From contig OX359245.1 of assembly GCA_947179485.1 (NCBI GenBank), positions 20,881,067-20,945,066 of the forward strand: DNA of 64,000 nucleotides. The letters run 5' to 3'. The stretch comes from Allacma fusca (lineage: Eukaryota > Arthropoda > Collembola > Symphypleona > Sminthuridae). This document shows, piece after piece, positions 11,785-42,386 of this stretch; within the stretch, counting starts at the first letter, position 1, and each line of letters starts with the position of its first letter. Position numbers and translations under genes: made by a program. Under the pieces are notes generated by a model that was not told where the DNA came from, made no database searches, and saw nothing but the letters and a program-made list of their open reading frames with translations.

Positions 11785-12768
11785 TTATCGGGACGGGAAT
11801 ACCGACGGTATCGGTAACGGTATCGGAACGGGACGTTACCGGTACCACGAAAATTTTCCGTTTTCACTACCGGGACGGAAACGGGAAAACTGAATCAGAT
11901 CCGATAAAATCGGAACGTATTCGTTTGAGGTTTCGTTACCGAAACCGGTAATGTAGTACCGATCGGGAAAGGTATGACAAGCTAAATTTCCCGAAACCAA
12001 AGTGTTCGTACCGATAGTCCCGAACAAGTAACAGCCTGGCTGAAAAAATGTGTAGCAGAAAATGTGAAATCAAAATGTACATGGTTCTAATTACTTCCCA
12101 AGTGCGCTTCGCATTCAGCAAATATGTGAACTCTTCTTTACATCCTCTTATCTAGTATTTTTTTGCATGGCTCATAAATTAGGATTTTAATTCAGATGAA
12201 GCGAATTCTGCTTTGTCAGAGAAACCCAAGACCCAACGAAAGAATATTGGACGTCGAAAGCTAGGAAACCAATTACGAAACCAGGTCTAACATGATACCG
12301 ATACCAACGTATTATTTGAATGCATGGCTGGGTCGAAAAACGAGGATTCGGCCGTGTAAAATAAGTTGCTTAGAATAATATCAACCATGTTGAAATAATT
12401 GGAATAATAATAAGTTGCTTAGAGCACCTGGGAATTGCAGATTAGACTACTGCGTGGAAAGTGAATTGTGGTTTTGTTTATGTGTAATAAGGACTTGAGC
12501 GTAAACCTATGAATATATAACATGTGAACTGATACTTAAAATCAGTTATCGGTACTGATTCGGAACGGTTCGGGATAAACCAATATCGGGTCATTCGGTT
12601 TCGGGATAGTATCGGTACCGGGACAAAAAAAATATTTTTTTCCCGTTTCGGGATAATAATTTCCCGAACCGAAATTTCCGGTACCGGAACGGTACCGGTT
12701 CCTGATTTTCAAGATTTCATTCGGTTCGGAACGGTACGGTGGTCGAGACCGTTTTTTTGTCCTGATAA
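11785..12768. mobile_element. TIR element with GGTACCG-rich ends
   Basis: TTATCGGGAC at 11785 and GTCCTGATAA ending 12768 form short inverted ends. The subterminal parts (11785-12020 and 12550-12760) are dense in degenerate GGTATCGG, GGTACCG and CGGGAC words in opposite orientation. No coding potential or clear duplication was seen; the right flank is disturbed by the next element, which inserted directly beside it. Confidence 0.55.
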
Positions 12769-12773
12769 TAAAC

Positions 12774-15034
12774 CAGTGATGGGCGTTTCAGCAAGCGCTA
12801 TTCTATTCTACTCTATTGTATTTTTCAATAGTTGCAGCATCTATGACGCTTTACTCTACCAGCGGTTTTGGATAGAATAGAGGACCTCTACTGCTATTAT
12901 GTTTAGCTGACTTGCTAGCTATTATTCTACTCTATTATGTGTTAAAGTGATTGTCGCTACTCTACCTCTACTCTACTCTCTAATTTTTTTTGGCTCTGCA
13001 AGCTACCACTACCTCTACCAAAAAAAATACAGTATTTACAGAGAAATTCATGGTATTTTAGAATAAAGAAGCAGAATGTAATGTAAACAGTAATGAAGTT
13101 AGAACCAATAGTCCTCACTTGTACCTATAAACGGTTCATTAAGAATCTGAATTATCATTCAATTTCTACCAGTATGTCGGAATTCGAATTGCATATTGCC
13201 CCGAAAACTTTGACCCTCGTTTGTATTCAAATGGTCATTTTCCATGAGTAATTGTGAGCATGGAAAAATAGATCACTGATAGTAGAATCGGAATCCAAAT
13301 AGAATTTTTGCATTCCGGTGCTCACAATAGATGTAAATCGGGGTTTTAAAAAAGAATTTGAGTCGGAATTGGTATTCAAAAAATCCTCTCCAAAATTGAA
13401 AGTTTGTTTCATGAATACCTAGCTTTGTGCTGAATTTTTCTATCGTATCTCAATAATTAAAAAAGTAGCGGTATTTAGGCCCGTGGCAGCCCTGATTTCT
13501 GCTAGTTTAACGTTAATATTGAGGCTTTATTGAATACAATAAGATCAGTACCCCATCCGTACAACCAGAGCTATGCAGTATTTTCAAATACAGTATTTTA
13601 AAATACGTATTTTCAGGCCACAAAGTATTTTGTATTTGGTATTTTCAAGTTAGAAAGCAGTGGGCAAGTATTTTGTACTTAGTATTTTAAGAGCCTGTAA
13701 GTACAAAAGTATTTTGTATTTGCTTACTTTCAAGGGCCTGGAAAATGTATTTCAAATAAATATTTGGCTCAAAATACTTTTCACCAGCATGATTACAACT
13801 TTGACATTGTTTGTAGTTTACATGATGTTCAATATCTGTGCGAATTCCATTTTAGCAATGCAATAACATGCGACGGAATGAATCCTTTTTACTGGATACA
13901 TCAAACATTTTCAGGTTCTCCATTTTCAGTATTACATAACGTCACTGAAAGGGCAAAATATTCTACGCGCGCATGCTTTTGTACATAACGATCACATAGT
14001 CCACCTTGCCAGTTTAACAACAATATTTAAGATCCGTCCAAGGCACTCAATTTAATTTTCAGATACTAACTCAGATACTAAAAATATCATAATAATCTAC
14101 ATCACTGAATAAACAATCAAAATTACTGATTATCGTTAGTCAATGTAATTATAATTAACGGACTGACCAATTCAACAAACGTTGAACCATTTGTTACTAC
14201 ACCAGTCTTATATGCAGTCCTTGAAGTGATTAGGTATCTAATTAATTTTTTAAATGATGAATTTGAAAGCTGTTTGAGCCCCAGAAACTGAAAATAGTGA
14301 GCATTATTTGGGTATTTTAAGAAAAGTATTGTATTTAAAATACAGTATTTTGTATTTGAGTATTTTGAATTACCGACCATGTATTGTATTTTTATTTGTA
14401 TTTTAGTAATGTACCCTGAGGTATTTTACTTTGTATTTTCTATATTTCACTTCAGGTATTTTATTTGGTATTTTGTAATCTTAGACCAAGTATTTTGCAT
14501 AGCTATGCGTACAGCTAAAAAATTACCACAAGCTAAATTAGATCACAGCTTTAAAACTAGCGTGTTTATAAAGGGAATGACGTGGTTCTGGAATTTATTT
14601 ATGTATTTCCAATTCCCTTCTATTGCATTTGCAGCTACAAAACACGTTTATGAGTTACTGTAATGATGAAGTGAAGTGACGTTGTATATACGGACACCAG
14701 ATGTCGTTCCGAGTATTAAATTGGGTGTTCAGGGAAACGGTAAATTTATGAATTACTTCTTATTACTATAAGCTTACTACTACCTCTACTCTATCATTAG
14801 AATACGATGTACTGTTCTACCTCTACTCCTACTACTGGTATCTAAATTGGGACCCTAAATAACGCTCCTCTACTCACTTAATTTTATGCTAGCTTACTAT
14901 TTTCCTCTACCTCTATTATGCTAGAATTTCTGTATACCTCTACTGCACCTCTACTAATGTTTTGCTGATTTTAACGACCCTACTCTATTTCTACCACTAC
15001 CTGTATTTTCAGTAGAGTAGAGGTCCCAGCACTG
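12774..15034. mobile_element. Non-autonomous hAT-type element, CTCTACT motif, TSD TAATAAAC
   Basis: A perfect 8-bp duplication TAATAAAC (12766-12773 and 15035-15042) flanks ends CAGTGATGGGC and GGTCCCAGCACTG. Both ends (12800-13020 and 14770-15020) are long arrays of degenerate CTCTACT/CTACCTCTA words in inverted orientation. No transposase is visible. Another element (13566-14507) is nested inside, so this one is older. Confidence 0.85.
13566..14507. mobile_element. Nested non-autonomous hAT-type element, GTATTTT motif, TSD CGTACARC
   Basis: CGTACAAC (13558-13565) and CGTACAGC (14508-14515) match at 7 of 8 bases and flank ends CAGAGCTATGCAG and TTTTGCATAGCTATG. The inverted subterminal arrays (13580-13780 and 14310-14500) are built from degenerate GTATTTT and AAAATAC words. 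The interior (13790-14300) shows no convincing ORF; the small frames there are chance. Confidence 0.8.
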
Positions 15035-15042
15035 TAATAAAC

Positions 15043-16137
15043 ACTATTACAAATCAAGCCCAGTCGGGCAGACTTACTGTATGACTAAATGTTGCGCGCT
15101 GGTCTTAAGAGTAGAGCGCGAAATTTTAATAGCCACAAACTCCATGCCTAGGCGATTAATTTATAAGGATTAAATCCAGAATGCGTGTCTCTCCCTCTGT
15201 GTGTCGATCTTCAAGCGTACAGCAAATGATCTACTGTACTCATATGTGCCATGGTTATGGAACTCAATTCTATCTCCACACATTACAATTTATTGCCATC
15301 TGATTATTTTGTCAATTCGAAACCGAAAGGTCACTATGCTCAATCGTTCAAATTAAATGTACTTTCTAATTTTTTAGACCTTAAGAATTTGAGAAGAGGA
15401 GAATTTTAGTGGTTAAAACTATGTACGCAAAAGTGGGATTCCTATTAGGGAAAATCGAATGGAATTGGAAGTACTTATTGTAACACTTTATATTTACGTC
15501 AGTTAAATTCTCAAATACTGTATTGCTGAAGTTATTTGCTTTTTTATTTTTTAATTACAAGCCTTAGAATCCACATTTGATCTTTATATCCCCTACAAAT
15601 ATCATTAGGCAATAAAGATTGATTTGTAGAACCCCTGAGTTTCAGTGACTATAGCATGCGAAAAGTGCTGCGCTACTACGAATTCCTTTCAGATTTCCTA
15701 TTTGAAATAATCAGTGCGTCCAGTGTCGGAGACTTCAGTTACATTATTACGGTACAACTGAGATACGCATAATTATAATAAAATTATAAAAACTCATAGG
15801 CGAAGCACCATACAGTGATGCAACAACAGGATTTAATTGCAATGCAATGTTGGTATTAAATTGATCAAGCGATTAGTTAAATTCCACGTGTATAGCCAAA
15901 TATTGAGTTTGGGAGCGAACCTTGGTGGGCCGGAGCGTTGTACCATAATTTTTTGATGATATAATGTCAGCTACCTATATGAAACGAATTGTTATTCTTC
16001 TTACAATTAATAGCTCACATGTCTTACATGAGATTACTTTTCCCGGCGAAGCGGGCTATTAACATTAAGCCTTCTCTCCATAGCCATTTACGGCAGGTCT
16101 TAACTTTGTGTATACTCACACAATTCTCAAGTACTTG
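15043..16137. other. Unassigned sequence with a dispersed-repeat fragment
   Basis: The piece around 15851-15891 (TTGGTATTAAATTGATCAAG) recurs at 42562-42605, so a low-copy dispersed repeat is present. Near 16043 a GCGAAGCGGGC hairpin similar to Helitron ends occurs, but no CTRR follows at the right distance. No gene is recognised. Confidence 0.4.
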
Positions 16138-17420: not shown

Positions 17421-18252
17421 CGGGTCTCCCTAAAACACTGAACAACTGAACATACAATAAACACTGAACAACTGAACGACTGAACAGCTGAACAACTGAA
17501 CAGCTGAACAACTGAACGACTGAACAACTGAACGACTGAATAACTGAACCAGTAACCACTGAACCCCATAAAACAATGACTAGAACTGACCTGCTGTAGG
17601 CTGACCTCCCCCAAAATCTTGTATTATAAATTCTAATAAATAAATAAAATAATATTAATATTATAAAAATATTTATTTAAACATGTTTTTTCACATGGCT
17701 AACTGAAATCAAAAGCTAAATCAAAGAACCAACTGAAGAATTCCCAGAACTAGTTTGCAACCAATGCAATGCGTCTTTGATATCTCTATTTCAAATCCAT
17801 AAAACGTTGTTAGTATTTATTGGCTAATAAAAAATTTCTAATAGATAAGATTTAGTTCTGTCTAATAGTTTGCTTTTTTAAAATAAAAAATGAGAAAGTC
17901 TAAACTTTAGATACTTGTATGAACTAGCTAATGAAAAATAATGTGTAACCCTATATGTAAACACGTTGTATGTAGACAATAGCAATATAACTATAAGCAG
18001 GTCAGTACTAGTCAATGTTCCTGGGGAGGTCAGCAGGTCAGTTCTAGTCAGTGTTTTAGGGGGGTTTAGTAGTTCAGTGTTTAGTGTAACGTTCAGTTGT
18101 TCAGTTGTTCAGTGTTTTAGTGCAATGTTCAGTCGTTCAGTTGTTCAGCTGTCCAGTTGATCAGTGTTTTAGTGCAATGTTGAGTTGTTCAGTTGATCAG
18201 TGTTTTAGTGAAATGTACAGTTGTTGAGTTGTTCAGTGTTTTAGGGAGACCC
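17421..18252. mobile_element. Non-autonomous hAT-type element, CTGAAC motif, TSD TAATTTCC
   Basis: TAATTTCC (17413-17420 and 18253-18260) is a perfect 8-bp duplication. The ends GGGTCTCCCTAAAACACTG are inverted at both termini. The left arm is an array of CTGAACAA/CTGAACGA words (17440-17565) and the right arm the reverse complement array (18080-18240). The serine-rich and phenylalanine-rich ORFs that cross these arrays are translation artefacts of the repeats. Confidence 0.85.
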
Positions 18253-18600
18253 TAATTTCCTCTCTTGTTTTTGGAAAGGTTTTTTGTGCTTCAATTAAAT
18301 CCGCTCATCACGTCCGCCGTCCACACTGTCGGTAATTATTTTGGAAATTATTCCGCAATTAATAAAAACAGGTAGGTTCCATTTTGACTTTATTCCGTGA
18401 ATCTATTCAAGTTTACAACTATCATTAAATTTGTATGGAATTTAGTGGAAGGTCGAGGAATTTCAGGGCTAGATTTTACAATCCCGGCCGTTTCCACTTT
18501 TCCACCTTTTCCCCACTTTTTCCACCCTTTTCCACTTTTTCCACCCTTTTCCACTTTTTCCACCCTTTTCCACTTTTTCCATCTTTTTCCACGTTATCCA

Positions 18601-19920
18601 CCTTTTTCCACTTTAAATTTCAAAATTCCCGTCGCACATTCGCCGTATTATTCGGCCAAATTAATCGAAAGGTCACAACTTACTTGACACTACGGATAAG
18701 TAAACAACTAAATTGTAAATAATTAGGATACTGATGGTGGATTGACATCCCTTCGAAATATTATTACTTTCAATTTGTACTAGGTTAGGTTAAGATGGAA
18801 AATATTGATCACATACAGGTTACTATTTTGATTGATAACACCAGTCACCATTTTTATACTTTTACACAGGTCCGAACTCCATTAACAATTAACCTTAAAG
18901 CTGCCAGATCTCAAAAAACAAAAGAGATTTAATTGTGATCTCTTTTGGGAATCAATTAAATTTTTAAGATTCACTCAGGTATATACCGCTGAATATTTAC
19001 AAGAGATTTAACAAAAATTTCATCGAAAAAAACCAATTTCTTTGAAATATCCAAGTTTTTTACATACCTACATAGATCTTAAATTAAAATCCCAGAGCCT
19101 ACTTTTTGTTTTTCGGGATCTGGCAGCTTGAGGGTTAAGTAATGGTTAAAGGATTTTACATCTACATAAAAGCACATGTAAAAATTGCAAGTAGGACATT
19201 TTCGAAGGGATGCAAATATATTATCAGTATCCTAATTATTAGTGTTTACCCAGAGATGCCCAAATGAAATGGTCTTCCTTCACACCTTCAAAGGGTAATT
19301 TAAAAACAAATCCTGCCTTCCTCCTGCCAATAAATGAAGCCTTTAAAATTATTTGCATATATAAAAATAAAAACATGCATGTTTTCAAAATTCATACACG
19401 TTTTGGTACCATTTCAATAATTATGAAATAAATGAAGGCCCAATTTGAAGGAGGGATATTTTTGGAGGAAGGGTGAATTCATTTAAAAATTGAAGGAGGG
19501 TTGATGGAAGACAAATTTTTAAAGGCTTCGTCTTCATTTATAGGCAGGAAGAAGGCACGATATTTTAAAATTGCCCTTTGAATGTGTCTCTTTTGTATTT
19601 CGAGAGCTGGCAGCTTTAGGGTTAATGGTTAAAGGAGTTCGGACCCGTGTAAAAGTATAAAAATGGTGACTGGTGTTATCAATCAAAATGGTAACCTGTA
19701 TGTGATCAATATTTTCCATCTTAAGCTAACCTAGTACAAATTGAAAGTAATAATATTTCGAAGGGATGTCAATCCACCATCAGTATCCTAATTATTTACA
19801 ATTTAGTTATTTACCTATCCGTAGTATCAAGTAAGTTGTGACCTTTGGCCATTAATTTGGCCGAATAATACGGCGATTGTGCGACGGGAATTTTGAAATT
19901 TAAAGTGGGAAAAGGTGGAT
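18601..19920. mobile_element. Long inverted-repeat element inserted in the palindrome's left arm
   Basis: About 300 bp at 18601-18904 (containing CCCGTCGCACATTCGCCGTA and the gene-like word CTAGGTTAGGTTAAG) recur inverted at 19620-19915 with few differences. A third diverged part-copy lies at 19125-19245. Between them a small inner foldback with CTTCCTCC and GGAGGAAG words (19250-19560) holds another likely MITE. No transposase was seen. Confidence 0.6.
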
Positions 19921-20244
19921 AAAGCACTGCTGCCACTTTTCCACCTTTTTTCATCTTTTCCACTGTATCCCACTGCTGCCCGCCAGGCTACCTAGTATAG
20001 TCTTTAAAATTTAGAACCGCAACTAGTCAAGTCTGGTCGTCAGCTGTATGTTTAAGTAGCAATAGTCAAGTCTAGTCCTAGTCTTGATTCTGCAGTTGGT
20101 TCCCTAGTCAAGTCTAGTCAATTCCCCTAGTCACATTGTATTTTTCATAAAAATTCCTTCGTTTTGCTTAGCAACATTACTTATTTTCAAAACCGTGCGT
20201 ATCGTTGAGTTCAAAATTTTCAGATTTCAGCGAACACCTCTAGC

Positions 20245-21194
20245 CAAAGGTGGGCAAAATAGTTTGCCTCGCCTATATCCTATATATATTTTTAATACCC
20301 AATCCGACCTACATTTTGCCTACATTTATGTCACTAAAATAAATACACGGACATATATGGAAGGATTATTCGCAAGCCTACCTAGATGCCTACTTTTTTA
20401 AAAAGAAAACTATAGCCTACATATAGGCCTGCATATTCTTGAAAAAATCCACGGCCTACACGCCTACATAATTGTAGTCTATATTTGCGCCTATGAGTAA
20501 TATGTAACTGTTTATAGGGATTCTATGCTGATATAGGAACGGTTGAGTTGTCTCCCTACACAAGGATTTCCCCTATGTCAAATTGGGGTTCTCCCGGCGT
20601 TATACATTTTATTAATTCACCCCAAATTTAGGTATATCATACATAATTAAACTACCTCCACTAACAATAAGAGATATATATAGTATGTATGATAGCGCCA
20701 ATATATGATGTGCTTGTAGTTCCCCTCCTTCCTTGACATCACCTGGGAAAACTTTATTTCAAACAAACATAATAACATTATTTATCACTATTAGGGAAAC
20801 TCACTGCAAGACTTTTGAAGTGTTCATTTCCTTAGAAAATGTACATAACCCCATGTATGCACCCTCAGAATAACTAATTTGAACACTTCGGGAAAATTTA
20901 ACAAATTATTAACTTATAACAGCACTTAGAATTAATTTCCTAGCTATTCATCAGTTTTTGTAAAAAAAACTTTAAGGAAGCACTATTTAAACAGTAGAAA
21001 ATGTCCACAGCATAGTAAGTACATCAACCTAACATATATATGAATAAGTTATTATGCCCAACACATTTTATAGGCAATCTACACAACAAGTTATCCCTCT
21101 ATCCTATAATGCCTATAATTAACATGAGAATTTTTTTGCAGCCTATATTTTGCCTACTTGTAGGCCCTACATGTAGGGGAGACGCCCAACTTTG
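20245..21194. mobile_element. Non-autonomous hAT-type element, GCCTACA motif, TSD CCTCTAGS
   Basis: CCTCTAGC (20237-20244) and CCTCTAGG (21195-21202) flank ends CAAAGGTGGGC and GCCCAACTTTG. Subterminal arrays of GCCTACAT/GCCTATAT words occur at both ends in inverted orientation (20260-20480 and 21060-21170). Removing it joins the two halves of the surrounding palindrome arm (21203 continues the match to 22470), an internal proof of insertion. Confidence 0.85.
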
Positions 21195-21380
21195 CCTCTA
21201 GGAAAAAACAAGGTCATTTTTATTCACACCAAACAAGTACAAATGAGAAAAAATACGTGTAGTAGGGAAGCTCATGGGAACAGGACCAACCCGGGTATTT
21301 GGGTACAGGAACAGGAACAGGTCCAAAATGGGTACAGTTTAAAAGTTCCCAATTGTAACAGGAACAATACAGGTACTTTT

Positions 21381-21580
21381 NNNNNNNNNNNNNNNNNNNN
21401 NNNNNNNNNNNNNNNNNNNNNNNNNNNNNNNNNNNNNNNNNNNNNNNNNNNNNNNNNNNNNNNNNNNNNNNNNNNNNNNNNNNNNNNNNNNNNNNNNNNN
21501 NNNNNNNNNNNNNNNNNNNNNNNNNNNNNNNNNNNNNNNNNNNNNNNNNNNNNNNNNNNNNNNNNNNNNNNNNNNNNNNN
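21381..21580. other. Assembly gap (200 N)
   Basis: A run of N of rounded length. Sequence on its left (21270-21380) is an AACAGG/GGTCC-type low-complexity array beginning GGGAAGCTCATGGGAACAGG, probably the arm of yet another motif-rich element whose other end fell in the gap. Proteins read across the N run are meaningless. Confidence 0.95.
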
Positions 21581-22188
21581 TACCAGCTCCATAGGCGGAC
21601 TAAGTTTTCTGAAACTGGTGCTGACAACAACGAATCACGATTTGATTCCACCGGAATCAACCTTGGTATTAATTGACAAAAAACTGGCTCTGACAGTGAG
21701 CAACTCAGTAAGCTACACGTAGTTGGTTTTAAAGAAACCAGGAATTTATACGGTATTAATACTAGTTGACATGTTCTGGATGAGTAAACAGACATTAAAA
21801 TGTTGGAGGTGAATTAGAATTTGGGGAGAATTCTTCCCCGGGTCAAAATATTTCTGAGAGGCAAAATCACGAAGTAAGGGATTCTTTTTGAGAAGGTAAG
21901 ATTCAGCAGGGAAATTCGGAAATGATTTTTCAGGGAGAATTACAAAAATCTGGTCCCTGGGTTCAACCTACTACAAATTCCACACCTTGTGCCTGGTATT
22001 TCTCCTTTTGAGTCGTGGAAATTTCATATAGATAATATACCAGAAACTCCAATGTAAAATTCCTATATACCAGATAAGACCATAATTTTCAGTTCAACCA
22101 TAATTTGCTATAAAGCCCTATTTTCTAAATTTGATTCCGAACTTACGGCTAAAGTTGCAAAACCTGCTTGCAGATAACTACAGACTAT

Positions 22189-30869: not shown

Positions 30870-32619
30870 GGGAGTGTGCACATATTACGTTTCATTTTTG
30901 GGGAGGGAGGGGGTCTTGAAGCTGATAATTTTGTGTATACCAAGGGGGTGGGGGTAATCTTGCTGATGACGTTTCACCCATTATCACAAAAATGTAAGGA
31001 ATAAACACGGATAATTGTTAGACTAGCGTTTTTAGTAACAAACTTTTATTTGTGAAAGACCACTGATACATTTTATAAACATACGCAAGCCGTACATTAG
31101 TCCAAATGTCTGACAACCATGAGCATTCTGAAAACTCAAGGCTCACGCAAGAATTTGCTGCAAAATCACATCCGTCAATTTTAGTTTTGCAAATAATTAG
31201 TTTTCATGATCTCAGATGCAACTTGGACAAAGTTTTAATACAGAAGTTTCTCCAGGTTCCGGTGCTCTGTAAGCAGGATTTTTCTGGAGTTGGTATTTGA
31301 AAACCCGGACGATTCATCTGCCTACTTTGACGGGGTTTGTTCATGCTAAATATCTGGAAATGATCCTCTGTCTACTATTGCCCCAGCATTCAAGACAACC
31401 TTGAAAGTCAAACCCACCATGCGTGCAATTACTATTTTGTTATCAACATTGCATATGAACCCCACAAAAGAGCTGCTCATAGAAATTTGTTAGAAAGCAT
31501 CTCGAAAAATATTGAATCTGTTGTTCAAAGTAATCAAATGCAGTTTTCCACAGCATTTGAAGGAAACACCGATGGAAGTTATTGTAAATGTGGCTGACTC
31601 GATACAGAGCGAATTTGCCTATATTACTAACGTTAAATGTTAATTTTATAATAAAAGGCTCTTTGCAAAAACAGTAATAATTGCAACTTCGCTTTTGTCC
31701 GCGAAGAAGAAACCGAAATAAAATGGCCACGATCTCAAGTTTCCCAACCGGTATTTATTCGTTTGCCTTAATTATTTTTTTCTTCCTTCAAAATTTAGTT
31801 TATTTTGTTTAAGTACGAACACGTGGACCGATTTCAACAAATAACAAGCTCATCAATTTTGAACAAAATGGGTCGAGCATTTTTGGAGGAAAGTACAGAT
31901 TATTTTTACGCAAGAACACGCTGACCTGTTCAATCAATAACAAACTCATACGAGTTTTCGGCCTATCCAATGATAACTAAAACTTTGAACGGTTTGGTCT
32001 AGTAGTTTCGGGGGGAAACTACATCGCGGACAACGCTCTCATATAAGGGGGCTGACGCCGCCCTGTAAATGCTGCGGATTAAACTTGTTTTTTCTTTGTT
32101 TTTGCTTTGATAACGTTTACAGGGGAGGGGTGTCATGGATTAATGATGTTAGGATTAGTGATGCCAATGGTCTGGTCCGGACCATTTATAATGGTCCGTT
32201 ATTGGTCTGGTCCGATCTGGTCCAACACTTGGACCAGACCAGATGCAATTGGTCCAGTATCAGGACCAGACCATACCAGACCAAAGGACCATGGTCCTAA
32301 TCTTTCGGAAAATGACAAATTTATGGATTCACGAAATCCCATGTAATGTTTAAAATTGTCACTTTTAGGGATAAAAACAAAATTTCACTTAATAAAACTT
32401 GATTATTTAATTACTATTAATGGTATTCTGGACCATGGTCTTTGGTCTGGTCTGGTCCGAAAAACTGGACCAGACCAATAGTCTGGTCTTACCTTTGGAC
32501 CAGACCAGTTTCATAAATCATGGATCAGACCAGACCATTGGCATCACTAGTTAGGATGACAACAGGGGGGTAGGGTCCAAAAATTGTGGAAAAATGTAAC
32601 GTAATATGTGCACACTCCC
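30870..32619. mobile_element. PIF/Harbinger-like element, TTA TSD
   Basis: GGGAGTGTGCACATATTACG at 30870 is inverted at the right end (32600-32619), and TTA flanks both sides (30867-30869 and 32620-32622). A 3-bp TWA duplication and ends starting with GGG and rich in GTGT fit PIF/Harbinger. The interior (31000-32100) has only small frames without a recognised domain, so any transposase has decayed. A GGTCTGG element is nested at 32156-32549. Confidence 0.7.
32156..32549. mobile_element. Non-autonomous hAT-type element, GGTCTGGTCC motif, TSD GTTAGGAT
   Basis: GTTAGGAT (32148-32155 and 32550-32557) is perfect. The ends are TAGTGATGCCAATGG and its inverse CCATTGGCATCACTA. The 394-bp element consists of inverted arrays of GGTCTGGTCC/GGACCAGACC around a 90-bp AT-rich middle. 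A sister copy with its own perfect duplication is at 61512-61908. Confidence 0.92.
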
Positions 32620-32996
32620 TTATGAGCTCAATGTGGACCAAAATTAGTAATACATGCATCCTTATTGTCATATAAAAATTCACAAAGTGGTCGCAGGATT
32701 AAAAGTTGATATATAGACATATTTTACTTAGACATTATTGAATTTCGTCTGTAAACATAGAAGCAATCAAATTTCATTTATATATTCAAGCTCAACATGA
32801 AACAATCCTTCAAGGTGTGACCATGCTTAGTAATTAATTAGTAATGCTACCAACGTTGTTTGACATTTTCAACAAGCAATTCCGATACAGCAACATACAG
32901 TTCTCATAAAACCCGTTATTCTTGAATTTACAGAAACCTTTACAAAGTACTTTCCTCACTTTCAGGACCCAATATTTTGTAGCGTAGACAGCAAAT

Positions 32997-33292
32997 GTCA
33001 GACCACACCATTGATCTGGTCCAGTTAATCGAACCAGATCAAAGACCACGGTCCAGAAAACCATTGAGAGTAACTAAATAATCAGGTTTTATTAAGGGAA
33101 ATTTTGATTTTATCCCTAAAAATGCCTATTTTAAACGTTACAAGAGATGTTGTAAATTCTTTAATTTTTAATTTTGTGCAAGGCTAGGACTATGGTCCTT
33201 AAGTCTGGTCTGATCCAACACTCGGGACAGACTGGGCCAGACCAACAACGGACCATTATAAATGGACCGGACCAGACCATTGACATCCATAG
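32997..33292. mobile_element. Diverged GGTCTGGTCC-family copy
   Basis: The same motif vocabulary and middle sequence as 32156-32549, but diverged. The right end GACCATTGACATCCATA is recognisable, the left end is eroded, and no target duplication remains. The ORF across it is an artefact. Confidence 0.65.
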
Positions 33293-34409
33293 CGGACATT
33301 CTCGTTGCATTCTAAGTTTCTAAGGCGAATGATAATGAAATGCTGAAAATGTCATGCAATACATTTTTACATTTAGCGGGTGCTTTCATATTACGCCTTT
33401 TCCGTGGATTTACAAAATTCTGAATCGTTTGAATTGCAATTCAAAGAGTACGGTTCAGTTCAATTCATTATTGTAAGCTGAATCATTCAGTTCAATTCAG
33501 TATTGTAAACTGAATCATTCAGTTCAATTCCATCTTGACCTGAACTGAAAAAATTATGAACTGCACTGAATCAAACTGCCCTAAATCATAATTTTTAGAT
33601 TTCGGACAGAATCGATCCGACCACTTATGTACGAATACCATCGTACATGTATCGATTTTTGTCGATGATAAACATGGCGTTAATTTTAAAAAAACATTTT
33701 AGAAGCTTATCGGTAAAATATTGGAGGTCAATACCTAATTGGTTTTTCCAGAACGCTTCTGTTCTCTCCTTGCAACCTTTGTTTTTGATAAGTGCAAGGT
33801 ATACAACTTTGTCCGAGCCATATTTTTCTGCTTTAGCCCTATAACCCTTGTACTATTTGAAACCGCGTGTATTTATTTAATTCATGTTTTGCTGATCTGA
33901 AGTTGTTTAGTATTTATTCGTGCATTGACAATTACACATAAATACACTATGCCCAGCAACTGAATTAACATTCACCTATTTGTAAAAACAATTCCATTGA
34001 AATGATCCTTCCTAATTATATGTTGTATGCTATCTTGTATAAACTGCTGTATGCCGTATGCTAAGTTGATGTTTTTTATGTATGCTAACTTGAATCAACT
34101 GTTGTATGTTGTATGCCAACTTGAATCATTGGTTGTATGCTGAATGCTAGCTTGAATTAAATGTATACCTGTATGCTGTGTGCTGTAGCATACAATTGTA
34201 TGCTAAATTGACGCCACGACTGTATGCTGTACGCCAACTTGCACCTTCCCGTGCTGGTATACGTATATGTGTATGTATTTATATAGTGACCCCTGACCAC
34301 TATATACTTATATAGTGGTCCCTGTCTATAGTGGACAAATTTTAGCGTCCCTAGGAAAACCACTATATACAGGTTTTACTGTATTTAGCTATGAGACTTA
34401 GGCTAAGTT

Positions 34410-36003
34410 TTTTACTTGAATCATTCGGGTCAAGTTCAGGTACGTACCCGGCTTGACCATGACATTCTAAGACAAGTCAGGTTCAAGTGCAAGTAAGACA
34501 AATTTACTTGAACCCCAAGTCAAGTTCAGGGTCAAGTAATGGAAAGAAAAAACTTGAACATGAACCTGAGGTTTAATGGTCAAGTTCAAGTAATTTTAGA
34601 TTGCGCATGCCATAAAGGACGGAAGAAATTTCAAAATCACAATCCAATTTCTTGTCATGTTCAGCATATTTTGTTTGCGTATGTTATAAATCAAAGAACA
34701 AAATTCAAAACCAGAGTTAGTTTTATGTAGGTTTTGTTTAACTGACGTTGTTAGTTGTTGCAGCAACCTCTCCATGAAATGAAAGAACTATCTTGATAAT
34801 TCGTATTATTACTTCGAATTATTAGTTTCAACTTAGGTATTAATTTTCAATATAAAATGAGCTTGGATTGTCCATTACAAAAATCAATTAAAAAACAAGT
34901 AAATACTAGTTTACTTTATTAAATATTAAGTTAAGAATACTGGGAATGCTCAAATAGGTATATGTATACATACATATATGAACATTAAATAAAACTTGAC
35001 ACAATATAATACTCGTCATATATACAGTGAAGGTCCATTATAAGAGATCAGCTTATAAGGTGTTATGGGGGAATGGGGATGAGGGATGATTTGTGTGTGT
35101 GTGCGTATGACTTGTTATGTACGCTAATGTTTGGGGGGAAGGGGACTCAAACTTGGAGTGAGAGTGTACGTGACCAAATAATGTACTGTATGCGAGAGAT
35201 TGTAATAATATAGAGAGGAAGAGAGTTTACTAATTGTGAGCCAAAACTGAACCCACTTACCTAATGTAACCTAAACCTAAAGACTAATGTTATGTCAAGT
35301 GTCCTCATACGAGTTCTCTCTCGTTTATATATGATTATAATAATGCAGAGTCAGCTTATTCTTACTTACATGATTACACAATATCAGATGTATCATACCA
35401 AATAATATTCGATTATCATGCACATTACAAAGAGTGACTTCATGTCAGTGTCTCAATAGTATTATGTCGTAACAAAGGAATGTATCGATATGCGGGATGA
35501 ATTTGTATGACCTCAACTTTTATTTACACAGTTAGACGTTTCTTGTAAGGGAAATTGGACAAATTGTTCTATCCTTTATACCTAACTTTTACTGTATTCA
35601 GTATACGCTAAAGGATGTCCTCGAATGGGTTTAAATAAAAAATAGCATTAAAATTGTTTTCTGAATGCGTTTTGGTTTTCAGTCCGACGGAAATAATTTG
35701 CCGATGTATGCTAAAAAAATTTGTAGACATATTTTATTTCTTGTGATACTTAACTTGAATTATCAAGTTCAAGTCACGTTCAAGTCATGGTCAAGTCAAG
35801 TTCAAGTCAAGTTTGGAACTGTAACTACTTGATCAAGTTCGGGTCTTAGAAAATTTACTTGATTACTTGAACTTGACAAGTCAAGTAATTACAGGAACGC
35901 AAGTTATCAAGTTCAGGTTGTGTCTTGAAAATTACTTGAAGTTTCATGGTCAAGTCAAGTTCATGATCAAGTTTTTAAATTACTTGACCCGATCGCACCA
36001 CTG
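34410..36003. mobile_element. hAT-type element, TCAAGTTCAAG motif, left end unclear
   Basis: The right end ...GATCGCACCACTG (36003) is a hAT-like terminus in reverse (CAGTGGTGCGATC), followed by GTATTTAG, the minisatellite word used as a target by the element at 28825. Both ends (34410-34580 and 35750-35995) are arrays of TCAAGTTCAAGTCAAG words in inverted orientation. The left terminus lies within a shortened minisatellite remnant and could not be fixed. A TA-flanked pogo-like piece is nested at 35025-35594. Confidence 0.65.
35025..35594. mobile_element. Possible diverged pogo-type MITE with TA flanks
   Basis: CAGTGAAGGTCCATTATAAG at the left, preceded by TA, and ...TATACCTAACTTTTACTG at the right, followed by TA, form a diverged inverted pair. 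No coding content. Confidence 0.4.
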
Positions 36004-37022: not shown

Positions 37023-39674
37023 TCACAACCTTACGTACACACAGAATGAGGGATTGGAAGGCACCGATCCACAAATTAATCGCAGAGAATTGCTTTCTTG
37101 TAAGTTTTCAGCACTGTGTGACTGTATACTAAAGTTTTCTAGACTTTCAACCGAAATAGCTTGTCCTTCTGGAGTAAGTATAATGGGCCCTGTTGGAATA
37201 ATTTAAAATTTAAGGGTGTCGGGGGTGGCTGGAGACGAATCTTCTTGTTCAAGTCGAGCTCCTCGAGGAGGGGAGTCGGGCCAAACTTCCTCGTCATTTT
37301 GAATGCTGTCTGTTTGTTTGAGTTCAATCGAAGATGTCAAGGTGTCCCATGAACCTGGGCCTTTTGTTTCTACGGAAGCACCAGTGGTAACCGCATCGTT
37401 TATTCTCCACTTACCACCACTTCCTCCCCAGCCGCCCCCTCCTGTGCCTCTCCCACCTACTCCTCCTTGATTGCCGCCATTCCCACCTACTTCTCCACCT
37501 CCTCCTTGATTACTTCCACCCCACCCCCCACCACCGCCTCCTTTTCCTCCGCCGCCAGTGCCACCTCCTTGTCGTCCACTTCCCCCAACCTCCCTCTCCT
37601 TGACCTCCGCCGCCGCCAGATTTACCTCTTCCACCGCCACCAGAACTGCGCCAACCTCCACCTCCTCCTAGACCACCACCGCCCCATCCCCCTCCTCCCT
37701 GGCTGACCAACCCAGCCTCCAACACCACCACCTTGTCCACCGCCACCCCAACCACCTCCTCCTCCTCCTCCTCCCTGGCCTCCTCCCCCCAACCACCGCC
37801 ACCCCAATCAGTCGGAGCACCCCAGCCCCATCCATCCCCGCCACCCTTAGCTTTCTTCTTTTCCGCTATTGCTTTAGCCTTGGCGATTCTCTTCGTAGCC
37901 TTTGCTTTAGCTTTAGATACTTTCTTACTTGGACAGCTCTTTCCTCCGCCACCACCGCCCCATCCTCCGCCACCACCACCCATTCCTCCGCCTCCCCAGC
38001 CTTGGCCTCCACCGCCTTGGCCGCCTCCACCCCAACCTCCACCACCTTGACCACCTCCTCCATATCCTCCACCGCCGCCGCCTACACCGCCTCCTGCACC
38101 ACTCCAACCTCCACCACCTTGGCCTCCTCCACCACTCCAGCCTCCACCACCGCCTTGTCCACCTCCACCACCGCCTTGGCCACCCCTACCACTCCAGCCT
38201 CCACCACCTTGCCCACCGCCTCCATAGCTTCCACCACCGCCTTGCCCACCTGCAATTATACGGATTATTTCATAGCAATTTGTCTATTTCACAGTATCCA
38301 GCTAGCCAGAAGAACCTACACCTTAATTTCAATTGCCCCAAATTAATGTGAGAAAAATTGGTGAATAGATTTAATAAAGCCATTGTTTATAGTCATTACG
38401 AGAAAATATTACCATGGACCCCTACTATTGTAATAATTATGTGTAAACGAATTACAATAAAGCACTATAAATACCTGTATTCCTAGTAGCTATACCAGCA
38501 GTTAAAATGGCCTTTGGCATTACCATACCCATTGTAGGCGACGGAATTTTCGCAATCAGGATATTTTTCAACAGTTTTGCATGTCTTTTCCTACTTCGAT
38601 CCAGGTCAGCGGTATCTCCAAGATAGGTAGACTCGGGAAGAGACTCAGCAGAACTCTTGGTGACATTTTCTGGCTGAGTTCTACTTTCCCGGCCACAAAA
38701 TTACTTTCCACCTTCCACTCACCCATATATTAACACTGTAATACATAAGTAACTTCCACCAGACTTCCACCTCCCACCAAACTTCCACTTGTCCTTCCAC
38801 TAGACTTTCCATCCAACCTTCCACTTGTCCTTCCACTAGACTTTCCATCCAACCTTCCACCTGACCTTCCACGTGTTCATTCATTTGAAAATAACAGTGT
38901 TGGATCAATTTCGGTGTGTTAACTTATGTTTCGCATTTTTTATTCGTAAAATTAACACGGAGGTGAAAGCACTTGAGTGTTTTAAGTTAAAACGAACTTG
39001 TATTACTAACTATAAAAATGCATGGTACCTGAATGGAGGAAACAAGTTACTGTTACAAAATCATTATGAGTACAAGCATTATGGTCAGATTTCGATGGCG
39101 TTGCGTAAAACTATGTCAAAGAACTGATAAAAATCAACCACTGGAAAACGACTTGGTTCGAAAGAACTCATGGTGAAAGAGCTTACCGGTGAACTGATTT
39201 TTAACAAAAATGTTAAAACGTTTTTAGGAAAATTCCGTAACAACTAACGATTAATGGTAAGACGCAAAATTTCTGGCGTTGCTACTTACTTTTCCCAATA
39301 AATGAAAACCTTGATTTACGGTTTGAATATTCGCATACAGGGGCCAACGCATTAACTATCTCCAGTTCGCACTTTCTGTTTCACCCATCAGAACACAGAG
39401 GGATATGTTAATCAACATAGGGAACCAGGTAGAAGGATCCTCCATCCTTCCAAATTTAAGTGAAAGATCTGGAAGGTGGAAAACCCGTAAAATTTTGGTG
39501 GAAGGTCAAATGGAAGGTCTAGTGGAAGGTGGAAATCCTGGTGGACGGTGGAAGGCAATTTTTTGCCGGGAAAGTAGAACTCAGCCCATTTTCTCTTTTA
39601 CCAAACAACAACCGACGCTGGGGTTCTTCTTTGTTCGTTGAGGTTATTGCGATGGCTACAACCATCAAACCAAC
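37023..39674 (-). pseudogene. Glycine-rich secreted protein gene, copy 1, disrupted
   Basis: On the minus strand, an exon beginning after an acceptor-like CGTACAG (at 39675) reads in frame GLMVVAIAITSTNKEEP, a probable signal-peptide segment. It continues to ...GKREN at 39595, is interrupted by a 915-bp transposon (38672-39586) and resumes exactly in frame as VTKSSAESLPES to ...TAGIATRNTG. A GT donor at 38477-38476 opens an intron of about 228 bp that ends in CAG at 38250. Exon 2 encodes GGWGGGGQ-type repeats, a Lys/Ala-rich block (KKVSKAKAKATKRIAKAKA, about 37890) and a C-terminal domain (WRINDAVTTGASVETKGPGS onward). At least three frameshifts occur in the G-rich part, at about 37805, 37710 and 37590. 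CAA to TAA at about 37201 removes the last roughly 60 residues found in copy 2, which end at 37023. The composition suggests a cuticular, silk-like or egg-coat secreted protein; its exact role is unknown. Some frameshifts could be assembly errors in low-complexity DNA, but the insertion and the stop are clear. Confidence 0.7.
38672..39586. mobile_element. Non-autonomous hAT-type element in an exon, GGAAGGTGG motif, TSD CATTTTCT
   Basis: CATTTTCT (38664-38671 and 39587-39594) is a perfect duplication. The ends GGCTGAGTTCTACTTTCCCG and the exact inverse frame arrays of CTTCCACC/GGTGGAAGG words (38700-38880 and 39465-39560). Removing it and one duplication copy restores an uninterrupted reading frame in the glycine-rich gene. 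Confidence 0.9.
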
Positions 39675-39802: not shown

Positions 39803-40318
39803 CACTGATCGGCGCACTCAACTCGCACTCAGAACTCAAAATTTGAGTGCCGAGTGTGAGACCCGCGGTATTCTGACCAGAACTCAGTTTGTGAGGCCGA
39901 GTGCCATAAAAATAGATTACAGTCATTGAGCGAGAATGTGAGGGTAGTATTTGAAGCTCATGTATTCCATAACGGAATGCATGTTGTCCCATCTACACTT
40001 ACAAATTTAGTACATTTTGCCTGCATTTATAGTTTTGATGATTTCGCTTCCGCTAAAAATGAGAGTAATCGTCAGTACAGGGGACGGGTTCAGCGTTATT
40101 CTTTGGCGGATTCCTTGAAATGGCGCTAATTTTAATTTGTTACTGAGAGTTCCTGAGTGCGAGTTTGAGTGCAAGATTTCAGCATGGTCACTCATGAGTG
40201 CGAGTGCGAGCTCTTGTTTGACTCAGAATTTGAGTTCCTGAGTGAGTTCTGAGTTCCGTTTAGAGACTCCTAGCACTCTTGAGTGCAAGATCGAGTTCAA
40301 AAATTTTGCCGATCAGTG
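39803..40318. mobile_element. Non-autonomous hAT-type element, GAGTGCGAGTT motif
   Basis: The ends CACTGATCGGC and GCCGATCAGTG are exact inverses. CCAGGC occurs just outside both ends (39795-39800 and 40319-40324) but the 8-bp flanks match only in part. The arms are arrays of GAGTGCGAGT/ACTCGCACTC words. The next element (40324-42378) abuts and shares these flanking bases. Confidence 0.65.
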
Positions 40319-40436
40319 CCAGGCACTGCTGCCCGCCAAGTTTTAATTCTATTCTATTCTATTCTGTTTACAACTAAGTCTTGTATATTCAAGTCCTATT
40401 ATATTCTGCTAAAGGTTTGGCGAGGCTATTCAAGTC

Positions 40437-41370
40437 TAGTGTTTCTGTCGGTGCAAGTTTTGGGAATAACCGAACTTGCAATTACAATTACAATTGATAA
40501 TGCAAGTACTGGTAATGCCGTAACTGGTACTTGCTAAAATGCGGCAATTAAATCATGCAAATAACCGAAGTTGAACTTGCAATTAGTTGCAAGTACAATT
40601 GCAAGTGCAATTGCAATTTGTAATTGCAAGTTAACTGATATACAGTATAAATCGTCAGCGAAGAGGCAAATTGATCTGTGCATTTTTGATTCGTGGCAAG
40701 ATGATATTCATGTTTCGCTAAATTGAACAAAGTGTATTAAATAAAATGATCTAGATGCAATGCATAATGACAGAAAGGTGCACAAATGAAATAGCCTTTC
40801 TTTTAGCCTTCCAAGGCTAAAATATTGTAAAATTTCATCCTTTTAACATATATTTACAAGAAACACTTAAAATATTAGTATAACTATAATGTATACATAT
40901 TTATATAGGCTATAATTTTGATGCTAATCAAAAATTCACTTAGATTTTGCCTCCTCACCAACGGAATTGTGCACTCACAATCAGTACAATAATTATTACA
41001 CTCATTGAGACATTACTCGTGATTATTATGTACATTTGTTATCATAGCGGAATGACTTTTTGAGGCATTTTGTGGAATTTTGCGCTCAAATTCGAAACGG
41101 TTGCAAGCTGCAATTAAATTGATAAGTATTTTTTAAATTGCAACTTTTTGCAGTGCAAGCACTTGCAATTGCAATTGAATTTCTATCAATTTCAGTTAGG
41201 CATAACCGATAATTGCAAGTATTTAATGCTTGTGTAATTGCAATTTAAGTACACAGAAATTGCACTTGCATCGGCAATTGCAATTTCCTGGTGTAGAATA
41301 ACCGTAATTGAACCGAACTTGCAAGTGCAATTAGTAATTGCGGTTAACTTGCAATTGACAAGAAACACTA
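40437..41370. mobile_element. Nested non-autonomous hAT-type element, TTGCAA motif, TSD TTCAAGTC
   Basis: TTCAAGTC (40429-40436 and 41371-41378) is perfect. The ends TAGTGTTTCTGTC and GACAAGAAACACTA are inverted. Subterminal arrays are made of TTGCAATTGCAAGT words (40475-40630 and 41130-41360). Confidence 0.88.
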
Positions 41371-41638
41371 TTCAAGTCTATTCCTATTCCAACAAAATTA
41401 GATAATTCCTATTCTATTCCTATTCAAATTCTATTCATCAGCAATTAAAAACCGCGCGCTGAAAACTAGTGGATAAAGCGCGCTGTGTAAATATAACTAC
41501 ATTTTCTTTCACAATTCCAATTTCCAGGTCCTTGAATTATAACTTGCTATTGACAATGATAATAAAATAACTGATATTTACCAAATTTACGAGTCAGCAG
41601 AAGAGAATTAAACGGGCGTATAAATAATTATTTGTACT

Positions 41639-41813
41639 CAGGGGTGGATTAATAAAATAATTTTTACCCTGGCCCTAACGCTCAAAATAGATTTGTGGGC
41701 CTTTAGACACGATATCTGCAATTTGAGGGCCTTAGTCAACATTTTTTTTTACCCTGGCCCTAAATTTTTTACCCTGGCCGGCCAGGGTGGGCCACCCCGT
41801 AAATCCACCCCTG
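41639..41813. mobile_element. 175-bp hAT-type MITE, CAGGGGTGGATT, TSD TTTGTACT
   Basis: TTTGTACT (41631-41638 and 41814-41821) is perfect. The ends CAGGGGTGGATT and AATCCACCCCTG are near-perfect inverses. It contains ACCCTGGCC repeats. A diverged sister is at 22189-22351. Confidence 0.92.
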
Positions 41814-41890
41814 TTTGTACTCAATAATTGACAGTTAACAGGCCTGAATTAATAAAGTAATGCCTATCTTCAAAATATATTTCTAGTTTT

Positions 41891-42082
41891 TAGGGTGGCG
41901 CCAGCCCCTTAGTAAAAAAAACCTTGTCTGTACGTCCGTATGTGTGTCCTTCCGCACGATATCTCAAAAACCGCTGCACCGATTTCAATGAAATTTATAT
42001 TATAATTTTTTGAAAAAAATTATGAAATTAAAAAAAACTCAAAATTCTTCCTACTTTGACGGCGGTAACTGACGCCACCCTA
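41891..42082. mobile_element. 192-bp MITE with TAGGGTGGCGYCAG ends
   Basis: TAGGGTGGCGCCAG at the left and CTGACGCCACCCTA at the right are inverted. The interior contains CCGCACGATATCTC and ACCGATTTCAATGAAATTT, a word set I associate with common dispersed insect repeats. No clear target duplication. Confidence 0.6.
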
Positions 42083-42386
42083 CTCGAAGCCTCAAATTAT
42101 CGCGTATCGATGATCTTTACTCATGCAACCAAAGGGTTTTAGTTAATTTTTGTTGTTGTTTATAACATTCTCAGAGGCTCAGATTTGAATAAGAATTTTG
42201 CTGTTTTTACTATTCAATTCTAATCTTGGCATCAGGTGCATATTCTATTCTATTCTAGTCTGGGAGTTTCAAAAATCGAGCTATTCAATTCTATTCAATT
42301 TATTTCTGTATAAATGACGGCAATTCTATTCAAATTCCTATTTTCCTATTCAAGTCGGAATAGAATAGGGCAGCAGTGGTGACAGG

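Follow-up and report, generated by a model that had tools for sequence, protein, structure and literature searches.

Family-specific word arrays at the ends of hAT-type transposons in Allacma fusca

The window, a stretch of 64,000 nucleotides of Allacma fusca chromosome 1, is best explained as nested cut-and-paste DNA transposons, which fall into two kinds that share array-rich ends. On this best explanation the hAT kind is built of a short terminal inverted repeat (TIR) with an 8-bp target site duplication (TSD), followed by about 100–230 bp in which a family-specific word of 5–7 bp is repeated many times. The other kind, the GG class, has 8–10-bp (mostly 9-bp) TSDs and inverted arrays, and is most like Mutator/Foldback elements. 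A preliminary description had placed twelve motif arrays in one hAT class, with inverted arrays of a different, private motif in each family. That observation is largely real and as a whole was confirmed in part: eight of the arrays mark elements with 8-bp TSDs and hAT-type ends, and the four others differ. Specifically, the CTGAAC, GCATACA and GGAAGG arrays belong to elements with GG-starting ends and 8–10-bp TSDs, and the TCAAGTT element (H10) has a right end only (36003), without a recognisable left end. Its interpretation held for hAT partners with the same arrays; it was not supported as to inverted arrays, membership of all elements in one superfamily, or families that diverge completely. 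The elements are listed with window coordinates and strand (a point where none is assigned).

H1, 2762..8767, +: decayed hAT element with TIR CATAGATGCACAT/TATAGATGCACAT, exact TSD AGTTACAC, GAGTGCGAG arrays and a left-tip palindrome at bp 13–24; PF05699 match at 8068–8334 (E 4.2e-13). The interior has open frames, LINE-like by eye, with no Pfam match.
H2, 12774..15034,.: hAT element without transposase; CTCTAC arrays at both ends, mainly on the same strand; exact TSD TAATAAAC.
H3, 13566..14507,.: hAT-type, nested in H2; direct GTATTTT arrays; TSD CGTACAAC/CGTACAGC.
G1, 17422..18252,.: GG class; strictly inverted CTGAAC arrays; 9-bp TSD TAATTTCCC/TAATTTCCT.
G2, 18466..22808,.: GG class, interrupted by H4; inverted TTCCAC arrays; TIR GGGCTAGATTTTACAATCCCGGCC; no TSD found.
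H4, 19925..22742,.: hAT-type; CTAGTC arrays; TSD GGATAAAG/GGATACAG; its left arm copies, in inverted form, the right arm together with 36 bp of the right flank (309/314 bases identical).
H5, 20245..21194,.: hAT-type, nested in H4; GCCTAC arrays; TSD CCTCTAGC/CCTCTAGG.
H6, 26661..28370,.: hAT-type; CCCTCA/ACGAGG/CATGAG arrays; exact TSD CTGAGGAG.
H7, 28825..29472,.: ends of TAGGC type, which depart slightly from the hAT pattern; ATATCG/ACGATA arrays; TSD GTTTTTAG/GTATTTAG; inserted in a 25-bp satellite.
G3, 30429..34249,.: GG class; inverted arms of 275 bp (99%) that contain GCATACA arrays; 10-bp TSD CGTGCTGGTA; exact 9-bp TSD in 9/10 other copies.
H8, 32156..32549,.: hAT-type MITE; GGTCTGG arrays in both orientations; exact TSD GTTAGGAT.
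H10, 34405..36003 (start approximate),.: TCAAGTT/ACTTGA element with hAT-like right end CAGTGGTGCGATCGGG.
G4, 38672..39586,.: GG class; inverted TGGAAGG arrays; TSD CATTTTCT; other family copies have 8- or 9-bp TSDs.
H11, 39803..40318,.: hAT-type; GAGTGC/GAGTTC arrays; TSD CCAGGCCG, exact after discounting the adjacent H12 insertion.
H12, 40324..42378,.: hAT-type, holding H13 and H14; direct CTATTC arrays; TSD GTGCCAGG/GTGACAGG.
H13, 40437..41370,.: hAT-type, nested in H12; palindromic TTGCAA arrays; exact TSD TTCAAGTC.
H14, 41639..41813,.: 175-bp hAT-type MITE, nested in H12; few CCCTGGCC repeats; exact TSD TTTGTACT.
H9, 61512..61908,.: second intact copy of the H8 family; exact TSD GGTATGTG.

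The same phenomenon was also observed outside the interval of the preliminary description, at 2762–8767 and 61512–61908.

An 8-bp TSD, exact or 7/8, is present in 13 window elements (H1–H9, H11–H14), and 11 of these 13 have a short TIR of the CANNG/TANNG type at both ends, the exceptions being H6 (one end) and H7 (both). Window TIR pairs with YANNG ends (at least 9/10) are flanked by an 8-bp duplication with at most one mismatch in seven cases, against a chance expectation of 0.08 (mean of 12 Markov sequences); the same filter gives one case at 7 bp, none at 6 or 9–12 bp, two at 5 bp and ten at 4 bp. A second filter returned nine cases at 8 bp, none at 6, 7, 9, 10 or 11 bp, and four at 5 bp. 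Empty sites within the window are clear for three of the 11 elements tested: H9 has two empty paralogous sites, H6 has one at 62846–63094 (81% and gapped), and H5 has one at 22618–22407, in the copied arm of H4. The result for H7 is ambiguous owing to its satellite context. The boundaries are constant in the genome as well, since copies of H3, H8 and H13 keep the same ends; among the best 40 candidates listed for each, 30, 31 and 35, respectively, are end-to-end copies, the window copy counted. Of ten H3 copies fetched with flanks, nine show an exact TSD of 8 bp, and a length of 7 or 9 bp occurs in none; one of the nine shares its TSD with the window copy and probably lies in a duplicated segment. 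The arrays far exceed Markov expectation, with 12 versus 0.65 for CTCTAC in H2, 19 versus 0.41 for CTATTC in H12, and 13 versus 0.2 for CTGGTC in H8.

The key check of the preliminary description, autonomous hAT-transposase partners sharing the motif arrays, was positive and included partners of window elements. We read 30 transposase loci chosen by their matches to PF05699, the C-terminal dimerisation region of hAT transposases. Both ends and an 8-bp TSD were recovered at 18 of them, the remaining 12 giving no pair of ends that entered the analysis, and all 18 have subterminal arrays, representing about 12 motifs. A TSD-length control on 20 transposase loci gave ten cases at 8 bp (two later dropped) and none at 7 or 9 bp. 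Short TIRs of the CANNG/TANNG type occur at both ends in 13 of the 18 elements; L017, L023, L030, L033 and L036 deviate. Two loci, L011 and L014, have the exact H2 TIRs and CTCTAC arrays around PF05699 domains. H1, by its own domain, and H2, through these loci, are the window hAT elements linked to a transposase in this way; no partner came to light for H3, H4, H7–H9 or H12–H14, where the search covered copies of H3, H8 and H13. PF05699 was found in 8/8 scanned C-terminal ORFs of transposase-bearing elements. zf-BED exceeded the cut-off in L032 only and was sub-threshold in L037, L038, L017 and L028; N-terminal ORFs scanned from L010, L011, L015, L016, L019, L023, L027 and L031 gave no match at E up to 0.5.

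The arrays of the hAT class, previously described as inverted, are instead mostly direct or mixed. In the bulk of the arms, direct 6-mer sharing exceeds inverted sharing in 12 of 13 transposase-bearing motif families (family sums), with a ratio of at least 2 in seven; with the tips included (bp 13–230) this holds for 11 of 13 (L019 76/81, H1 63/64). The direct count stays at or below the maximum of 100 composition-matched resamples in five of 19 transposase-bearing elements (L010, L017, L031, L032, L036), and inverted sharing, too, lies above the resample maximum in the elements with the words CGGATA, CGGTTCGGAT, TGAGGG and GAGTTC; the arrays are therefore mixed and not strictly one-stranded. 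Among non-autonomous elements, H5, H7, H8, H9 and H13 are neutral in orientation and H11 is mildly inverted. Inverted sharing exceeds direct in all four GG-class elements. G1, G3 and G4 combine the Mutator/Foldback traits of 8–10-bp TSDs and long inverted repetitive arms, and G2 has the inverted arms only. No transposase was found inside G1–G4. The genome contains 49 MULE-domain matches, of which three were fetched; one (L081) lies between long inverted arrays, and none is linked to G1–G4.

A perfect palindrome within bp 8–34 marks the tips of many elements, with a bias to the left end. Among 16 transposase-bearing elements it occurs at the left in eight, at the right in one, at both ends in none and at neither in seven. 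Across all 25 elements tested the counts are left 11, right 3, both 1 and none 12, the left/right labels being arbitrary for the nine without transposase. The background is 386/10,000 interior windows and 40/644 array-zone windows. In L015, L016, L019, L023 and H1, which fall into two clades, the palindrome occupies exactly bp 13–24, and 5/6 positions vary in step with their pairing partner. Tip palindromes mostly consist of the same word as the tails; that of L016 is a one-base variant of its own word.

The words mostly differ between families, as previously claimed, and are not fully private. GAGTGCGAGT occurs in two elements with unlike TIRs (2762–8767 and 39803–40318), and the TIR CACTGCTGCCCGCCA is common to the CTATTC and CTAGTC elements. 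Nor is divergence between families complete, since several related transposases have related motifs, namely the groups GAAGG, AAGGC and TAGGC; TGAGGG, GAGTGCGAG and GAGTTC; and CGGATA and CGGTTCGGAT. Over 13 families, word spectra correlate with the transposase tree (Mantel rho -0.32, -0.19 and -0.23 for k=4, 5 and 6; p 0.004, 0.017 and 0.014), and the tree neighbours GTAGAG (L011) and GTAACG (L027) have almost no spectrum in common. Similar ends may reflect descent alone.

Judged from sequence, these patterns probably represent known hAT biology, that is, subterminal sites for the N-terminal DNA-binding domain of the transposase, in which the word would change while the geometry is largely held. 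Each word would be the site of the N-terminal (BED-type) domain of its own transposase; the tip palindrome would seat two such domains and, in line with a proposal for Hermes, single out the left end to be captured first. The polar tails would add further weak sites. The word may then drift with the transposase, while the shape of the complex would hold distance from the cut and polarity. We advance more tentatively, as a possibility that the balance leans against, a sequence-free end grammar for hAT transposons: an own-word dyad whose spacing from the left cut is constant, then mainly one-strand tails at both ends, with a word that can change with the DNA-binding domain, so that one genome would hold about a dozen orthogonal systems of the same geometry.

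Other forces could shape such ends. Selection at the RNA level might favour same-strand purine-rich arrays because they prevent a hairpin between the 5' and 3' ends of the transposase transcript, and hence RNA silencing. In 18/18 elements the purine share of each arm, read on the coding strand, reaches at least 50% (means 0.58 and 0.56; cores 0.52), and the window GG-class elements, with no transposase identified inside, are inverted. As the explanation of the arrays this is nevertheless unlikely, for it leaves the tip palindrome and the left-end bias unaccounted for, the MULE locus L081 tolerates long inverted arrays, and several families lie near 50% purine. RNA-level selection may act in addition. 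Slippage and gap repair, expanding short repeats near the ends, would make the arrays by-products of no binding role, with word and orientation accidental. Repair does reshape ends, as the wholesale inverted copy in H4 demonstrates, and some arrays are truly tandem (CTGAACA-type with period 8; TTTCCAC-type). Yet both ends carry the same word, often kilobases apart, the palindrome recurs near one tip at the same distance in five elements, and the spectra correlate with the transposase tree, which makes a by-product origin quite improbable. Binding of host proteins, such as DNA-bending factors, in place of the transposase appears very unlikely: one word across families would be expected, but the words vary between families and in part follow the transposase tree, and tip palindromes mostly share their word with the tails. 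A host factor is invoked by the Hermes authors for sequence past the first 50 bp, in the part of their report available (PMC10368747).

The transposase-binding reading bears on left–right discrimination between ends by hAT transposases and on their need for 150–200 bp of end DNA; the Hermes structure, in the available excerpt, accounts for the first 35 bp and not for inner sites (PMC10368747). A word changed about 12 times in one genome, with position and polarity largely kept, amounts to a natural mutagenesis experiment. From sequence alone it would predict the words bound by many BED-type domains, and it would offer transposon sets expected not to cross-react.

The idea is partly already in print. 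Nearest to the GG class are Tm1 and Galileo, the latter a P-superfamily element. The Foldback/Mutator element Tm1, as excerpted, resembles it in inverted short-repeat arms, 8–10-bp (mostly 9-bp) TSDs and GGA near the ends, and differs in repeats mostly of 13–15 bp (PMC3169594).

For the hAT kind, multi-copy subterminal sites of one word, bound by transposase, are known from Tol2/Tgf2. Ac/Ds (AAACGG; PMC3260210) and Herves (CGATTCAT; PMC3143072), in the portions of the sources available, likewise have multi-copy subterminal sites with one transposase-bound word per element. All of these are single elements, whereas here word, polarity and tip palindrome are compared within one genome. Hermes, a hAT element of Musca, is alike in its 8-bp TSD and hAT transposase, for part of our elements in a quasi-palindromic site pair at bp 11–27 of the left end (LE) only, next to our five palindromes at bp 13–24, and then in opposite-sense sites on the two ends (PMC10368747), which we take to lie on a single strand throughout the element. 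Specifically, the excerpted text describes palindromic STR1–STR2 on the left end only, STR2–7 antisense on the LE and STR1–5 sense on the right end (RE), cleavage harmed by a one-bp shift, and transposition hardly reduced by mutating inner putative sites (PMC10368747). Sense and antisense, which we read from that text as counted inward from each tip, would give a same-strand layout. The Hermes site has 4 bases, in 17 and 14 copies (PMC10368747), whereas the words here are longer and number about 12 in one genome; some families here have weaker polarity, and by eye the flip in certain families seems to fall within the right arm. DNA-binding domains of the CGGBP/hAT BED-Hermes group have diverse specificities according to the available part of that study, and four hAT proteins yielded PBM motifs that fit their own subterminal regions (PMC8097297). 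That study measured proteins, while ours describes end layout and polarity from sequence.

The assembly of the globular springtail Allacma fusca spans 392.7 Mb, with six main contigs of 81.89, 75.61, 66.08, 58.81, 55.59 and 48.06 Mb, and the window corresponds to C1:20,881,067-20,945,066 (C1, chromosome 1). Scanning the window for imperfect TIRs with YANNG ends, we found seven pairs flanked by 8-bp target site duplications (TSDs), where 0.08 were expected, one pair with 7 bp and none with 6 or 9-12 bp; a variant filter on the window TIR pairs gave nine with 8 bp and none with 6, 7, 9, 10 or 11 bp. Once pairs read by hand are added, hAT-type insertions with two recognised ends number 13 (H1-H9 and H11-H14). 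The preliminary description is partly right: its arrays, its ends and its duplications are real. H10 is represented by its right end only, a degraded copy of the H8 family lies near 33290, and H7 and one end of H6 depart from the YANNG pattern.

The insertions are nested: H3 lies inside H2, H5 inside H4 inside the GG-ended element G2, H13 and H14 inside H12, and H8 inside a Harbinger-like element inside G3. H12 is inserted against the right end of H11, whose TSD is the exact CCAGGCCG once this later insertion is discounted. Among 11 insertions tested, empty paralogous sites within the window confirm H9 (two sites), H6 and H5. A Pfam search of 14 window ORFs gave a single match above cut-off, the hAT domain of H1; the interior open frames of H1 are LINE-like by eye and gave no Pfam match.

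Features of the window
2762-8767: H1, a decayed hAT element with a hAT dimerisation domain, GAGTGCGAG arrays and exact TSD AGTTACAC
19925-22742: H4, TIR CACTGCTGCCCGCCA with CTAGTC arrays
23577-26660, 48100-52848 (inverted) and 59608-63022: three copies of a segment with a small cysteine-rich protein
28680-29675, 34383-34400 and 36005-36020: 25-bp satellite TAGTATTTAGCTATGAGACTTAGCA, interrupted by a number of transposons; the part at 29471-29675 has about eight identical units
29674-34384: element whose ends are of the CAGTAAAACCTGTATATAGTGG type and adjoin TA, presumably pogo/mariner-like; G3, the Harbinger-like element and H8 lie serially inside it
30879-32613: element bounded by GGGAGTGTGCACATATTACGT and a TTA duplication, which we take to be PIF/Harbinger-like
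40324-42378: H12, the same TIR as H4 with CTATTC arrays
46381-47145 and 55746-56508: the two arms of an inverted repeat, 99% identical and separated by about 8.6 kb
50564-50743, minus strand: second hAT dimerisation domain, with one stop

A TIR/TSD pair was sought around the second hAT domain, and none was convincing. The cysteine-rich-protein segment is a local triplication and served as empty-site control; its first copy gave no Pfam match. The TIR shared by H4 and H12 recurs at position 3516 of locus L009, and its pairing with CTAGTC in one element and CTATTC in the other is possibly a one-base word change inside a family.

Copies across the genome keep these boundaries. Among the best 40 places listed for each family, end-to-end copies account for 30 with H3, 31 with H8 and 35 with H13. 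The flanks of ten H3 copies carry an exact 8-bp TSD in nine cases and a 7- or 9-bp one in none; one of the nine, with the same TSD as the window copy, is probably a duplicated segment.

A genome search with the hAT domain PF05699 gave 150 scored matches of 860 candidates, and 30 loci were read. In the first 20, TIR pairs around the domain had an 8-bp TSD in ten cases, against zero at either 7 or 9 bp; the L026 match and the second L028 match were dropped as chance matches or damaged ends. Since chance matches were common in two relaxed scans (46 and 37 with 7-bp, 17 and 20 with 8-bp, 3 and 2 with 9-bp TSDs), pairs from these were kept only with a TIR of at least 10/12 plus arrays (10 elements). 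A second candidate pair in L036 (1559-5635) was unused, and the L020 pair with TSD GTATACGT/GTATACTT was left out of the count. Both ends were accepted in 18 of the 30 loci; the other 12 gave no end pair that was used. Arrays are present within the outer 230 bp of all 18 elements, most weakly in L010.

Array words of the transposase-bearing hAT elements
GTAGAG: L011, L014
GAAGG: L015, L016
AAGGC: L017
TAGGC: L010
TGAGGG: L019
GAGTTC: L023
GTAACG: L027
CGGATA: L028, L029, L030, L038
AACGTT/ATAACG: L031, L036
CAACAA: L032
AGTACAA: L037
CGGTTCGGAT: L033

The window element H2 shares its ends and arrays with L011 and L014. PF05699 was present in all eight scanned C-terminal ORFs of hAT elements, and among the ORFs scanned a BED finger exceeded the cut-off in L032 only.

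To assess the orientation of the arrays, we counted 6-mers shared between the arm bulks (bp 45-230), summed per family. Direct sharing, with the word on the same strand in both arms, exceeds inverted sharing in 12 of the 13 transposase-bearing motif families, and in 11 of 13 when the tips are included. Seven families (GTAGAG, GAAGG, AAGGC, GAGTTC, GTAACG, CAACAA and AGTACAA) reach a direct/inverted ratio of at least 2; five others have ratios of 1.3-1.7, and TGAGGG falls short of 1 (38/41). Direct sharing lies above the maximum of 100 composition-matched resamples, which retain the strand bias created by the arrays themselves, in 14 of 19 elements, the exceptions being L010, L017, L031, L032 and L036. 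Elements with CGGATA, CGGTTCGGAT, TGAGGG or GAGTTC surpass the resample maximum for inverted sharing as well, so these arrays are mixed. All 18 elements have arms of at least 50% purine on the coding strand, some barely.

Of the window elements that lack a transposase, four are direct (H2, H3, H6 and H12), five neutral (H5, H7, H8, H9 and H13) and two inverted, H11 mildly so (12/23) and H4 at 9/258; H14 is too short to judge. H4 at first resembled an extended, perfect inverted repeat, but its left arm repeats the right arm and 36 bp of right flank in inverted form. This copy sits behind the original 10-bp tip, gives the element its long inverted repeat, and is likely a product of aborted excision or faulty gap repair. 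H4 was therefore excluded from the orientation argument. Inverted arrays as the common design were rejected for the hAT class; the four GG-class elements are strongly inverted (direct/inverted 0/333, 8/148, 75/424 and 24/141).

All four begin with GG: G1 (CTGAAC), G2 (TTCCAC), G3 (GCATACA) and G4 (TGGAAGG). The behaviour of the class is not that of hAT. G1 is flanked by a 9-bp TSD containing a single mismatch, the window copy of G3 by a 10-bp one; elsewhere, nine of ten G3 copies have an exact 9-bp TSD. Ten G4 copies show 8 bp in five (one with a mismatch, and two probably one duplicated insertion), 9 bp in two and none in three. Many of the 12 motifs assigned to one hAT class do belong to hAT elements, but the GG ends and TSDs of G1 (9 bp), G3 (9-10 bp) and G4 (8-9 bp) rule out a single class for all. 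In TSD range the GG class resembles Mutator/Foldback elements such as Tm1, for which the available part of the source gives 8-10 bp, mostly 9 bp (PMC3169594); the CMITE paper, in its accessible part, is about piggyBac-like MITEs (PMC2872659). The genome holds 49 MULE-domain matches, and of three fetched loci two are without array ends. The third, L081 (C1:28724431-28729206), has its MULE domain flanked on both sides by long inverted arrays, built of the 20-bp repeat GTAAGCTCCGAAAATGCAGT, with the right end outside the fetched DNA, and is a Foldback-like Mutator element. These three loci linked no transposase to G1-G4 themselves.

When the hAT arms were read by eye, one tip often had its outermost one or two sites flipped relative to the remaining sites. 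We scored tip palindromes within bp 8-34, requiring perfect half-sites of 6 bp separated by a gap of at most 4. Among 16 transposase-bearing elements, eight have one at the left end, one at the right and none at both; for all 25 elements tested, nine of which lack transposase and have arbitrary left and right, the counts are 11, 3 and 1, and 12 have none. The background is 386/10,000 for interior windows and 40/644 for array windows. Five palindromes sit exactly at left-end bp 13-24: L015 TCCTTCGAAGGA, L016 CCCGTCGACGGG, L019 CCCTCATGAGGG, L023 AACTCATGAGTT and H1 TCCTCATGAGGA. Each is built from its own element's word (in L016, a one-base variant), and five of six positions covary with the partner. 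They are not five independent events, because they are confined to two clades of the transposase tree. Searched in the 30 loci, YANNG combined with a palindrome of 12 bp at bp 13-24 had 11 matches, three of them known ends, where 3.9 were expected; the pattern alone therefore does not find elements.

The words were described as fully private, as if each had radiated independently; comparison with the transposases contradicts this. Across 13 families, arm spectra correlate with transposase distance (rho -0.32, -0.19 and -0.23 for k = 4, 5 and 6; p 0.004, 0.017 and 0.014), and tree neighbours have similar words (GAAGG/AAGGC/TAGGC; TGAGGG/GAGTGCGAG/GAGTTC; CGGATA/CGGTTCGGAT; CAACAA/AGTACAA). The neighbours GTAGAG and GTAACG have spectra without similarity. 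The correlation speaks for drift over independent invention, and it could stem in part from shared ancestry of the ends.

As a whole, the data are probably best read as elements whose own-word sites serve the N-terminal transposase domain in a largely held geometry; each family word would then be the predicted site of that domain. A broader reading, a sequence-free end grammar common to hAT transposons in which the word changes along with the transposase domain, is tentative and rather less probable. Both readings are weakened by the composition-matched control and by the arbitrary left and right of elements without transposase. The interest lies in a geometry largely constant while the word changes: on this basis, the part played by subterminal repeats in hAT elements can be tested.

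Searches of the full-text literature, mostly without subscription papers, found no study that compares word, polarity and position of the palindrome inside one genome; in the portions available, the Hermes and CGGBP work comes nearest on array polarity and diversification. Binding of diverse words by hAT-type domains is already known from CGGBP/hAT proteins, according to the accessible part of that source (PMC8097297), and excerpts on Ac and Herves give subterminal sites of other sequence. In Hermes, as far as the available text of PMC10368747 goes, a palindromic site pair at bp 11-27 of the left end alone is bound by two BED domains, left-end sites 2-7 are antisense and right-end sites 1-5 sense, a one-bp shift impairs cleavage, and symmetrised ends keep little or no activity. 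If counted inward from each tip, these senses read as one strand across the element. On that partial account, many springtail elements appear to follow a Hermes-like end layout, with words of their own.
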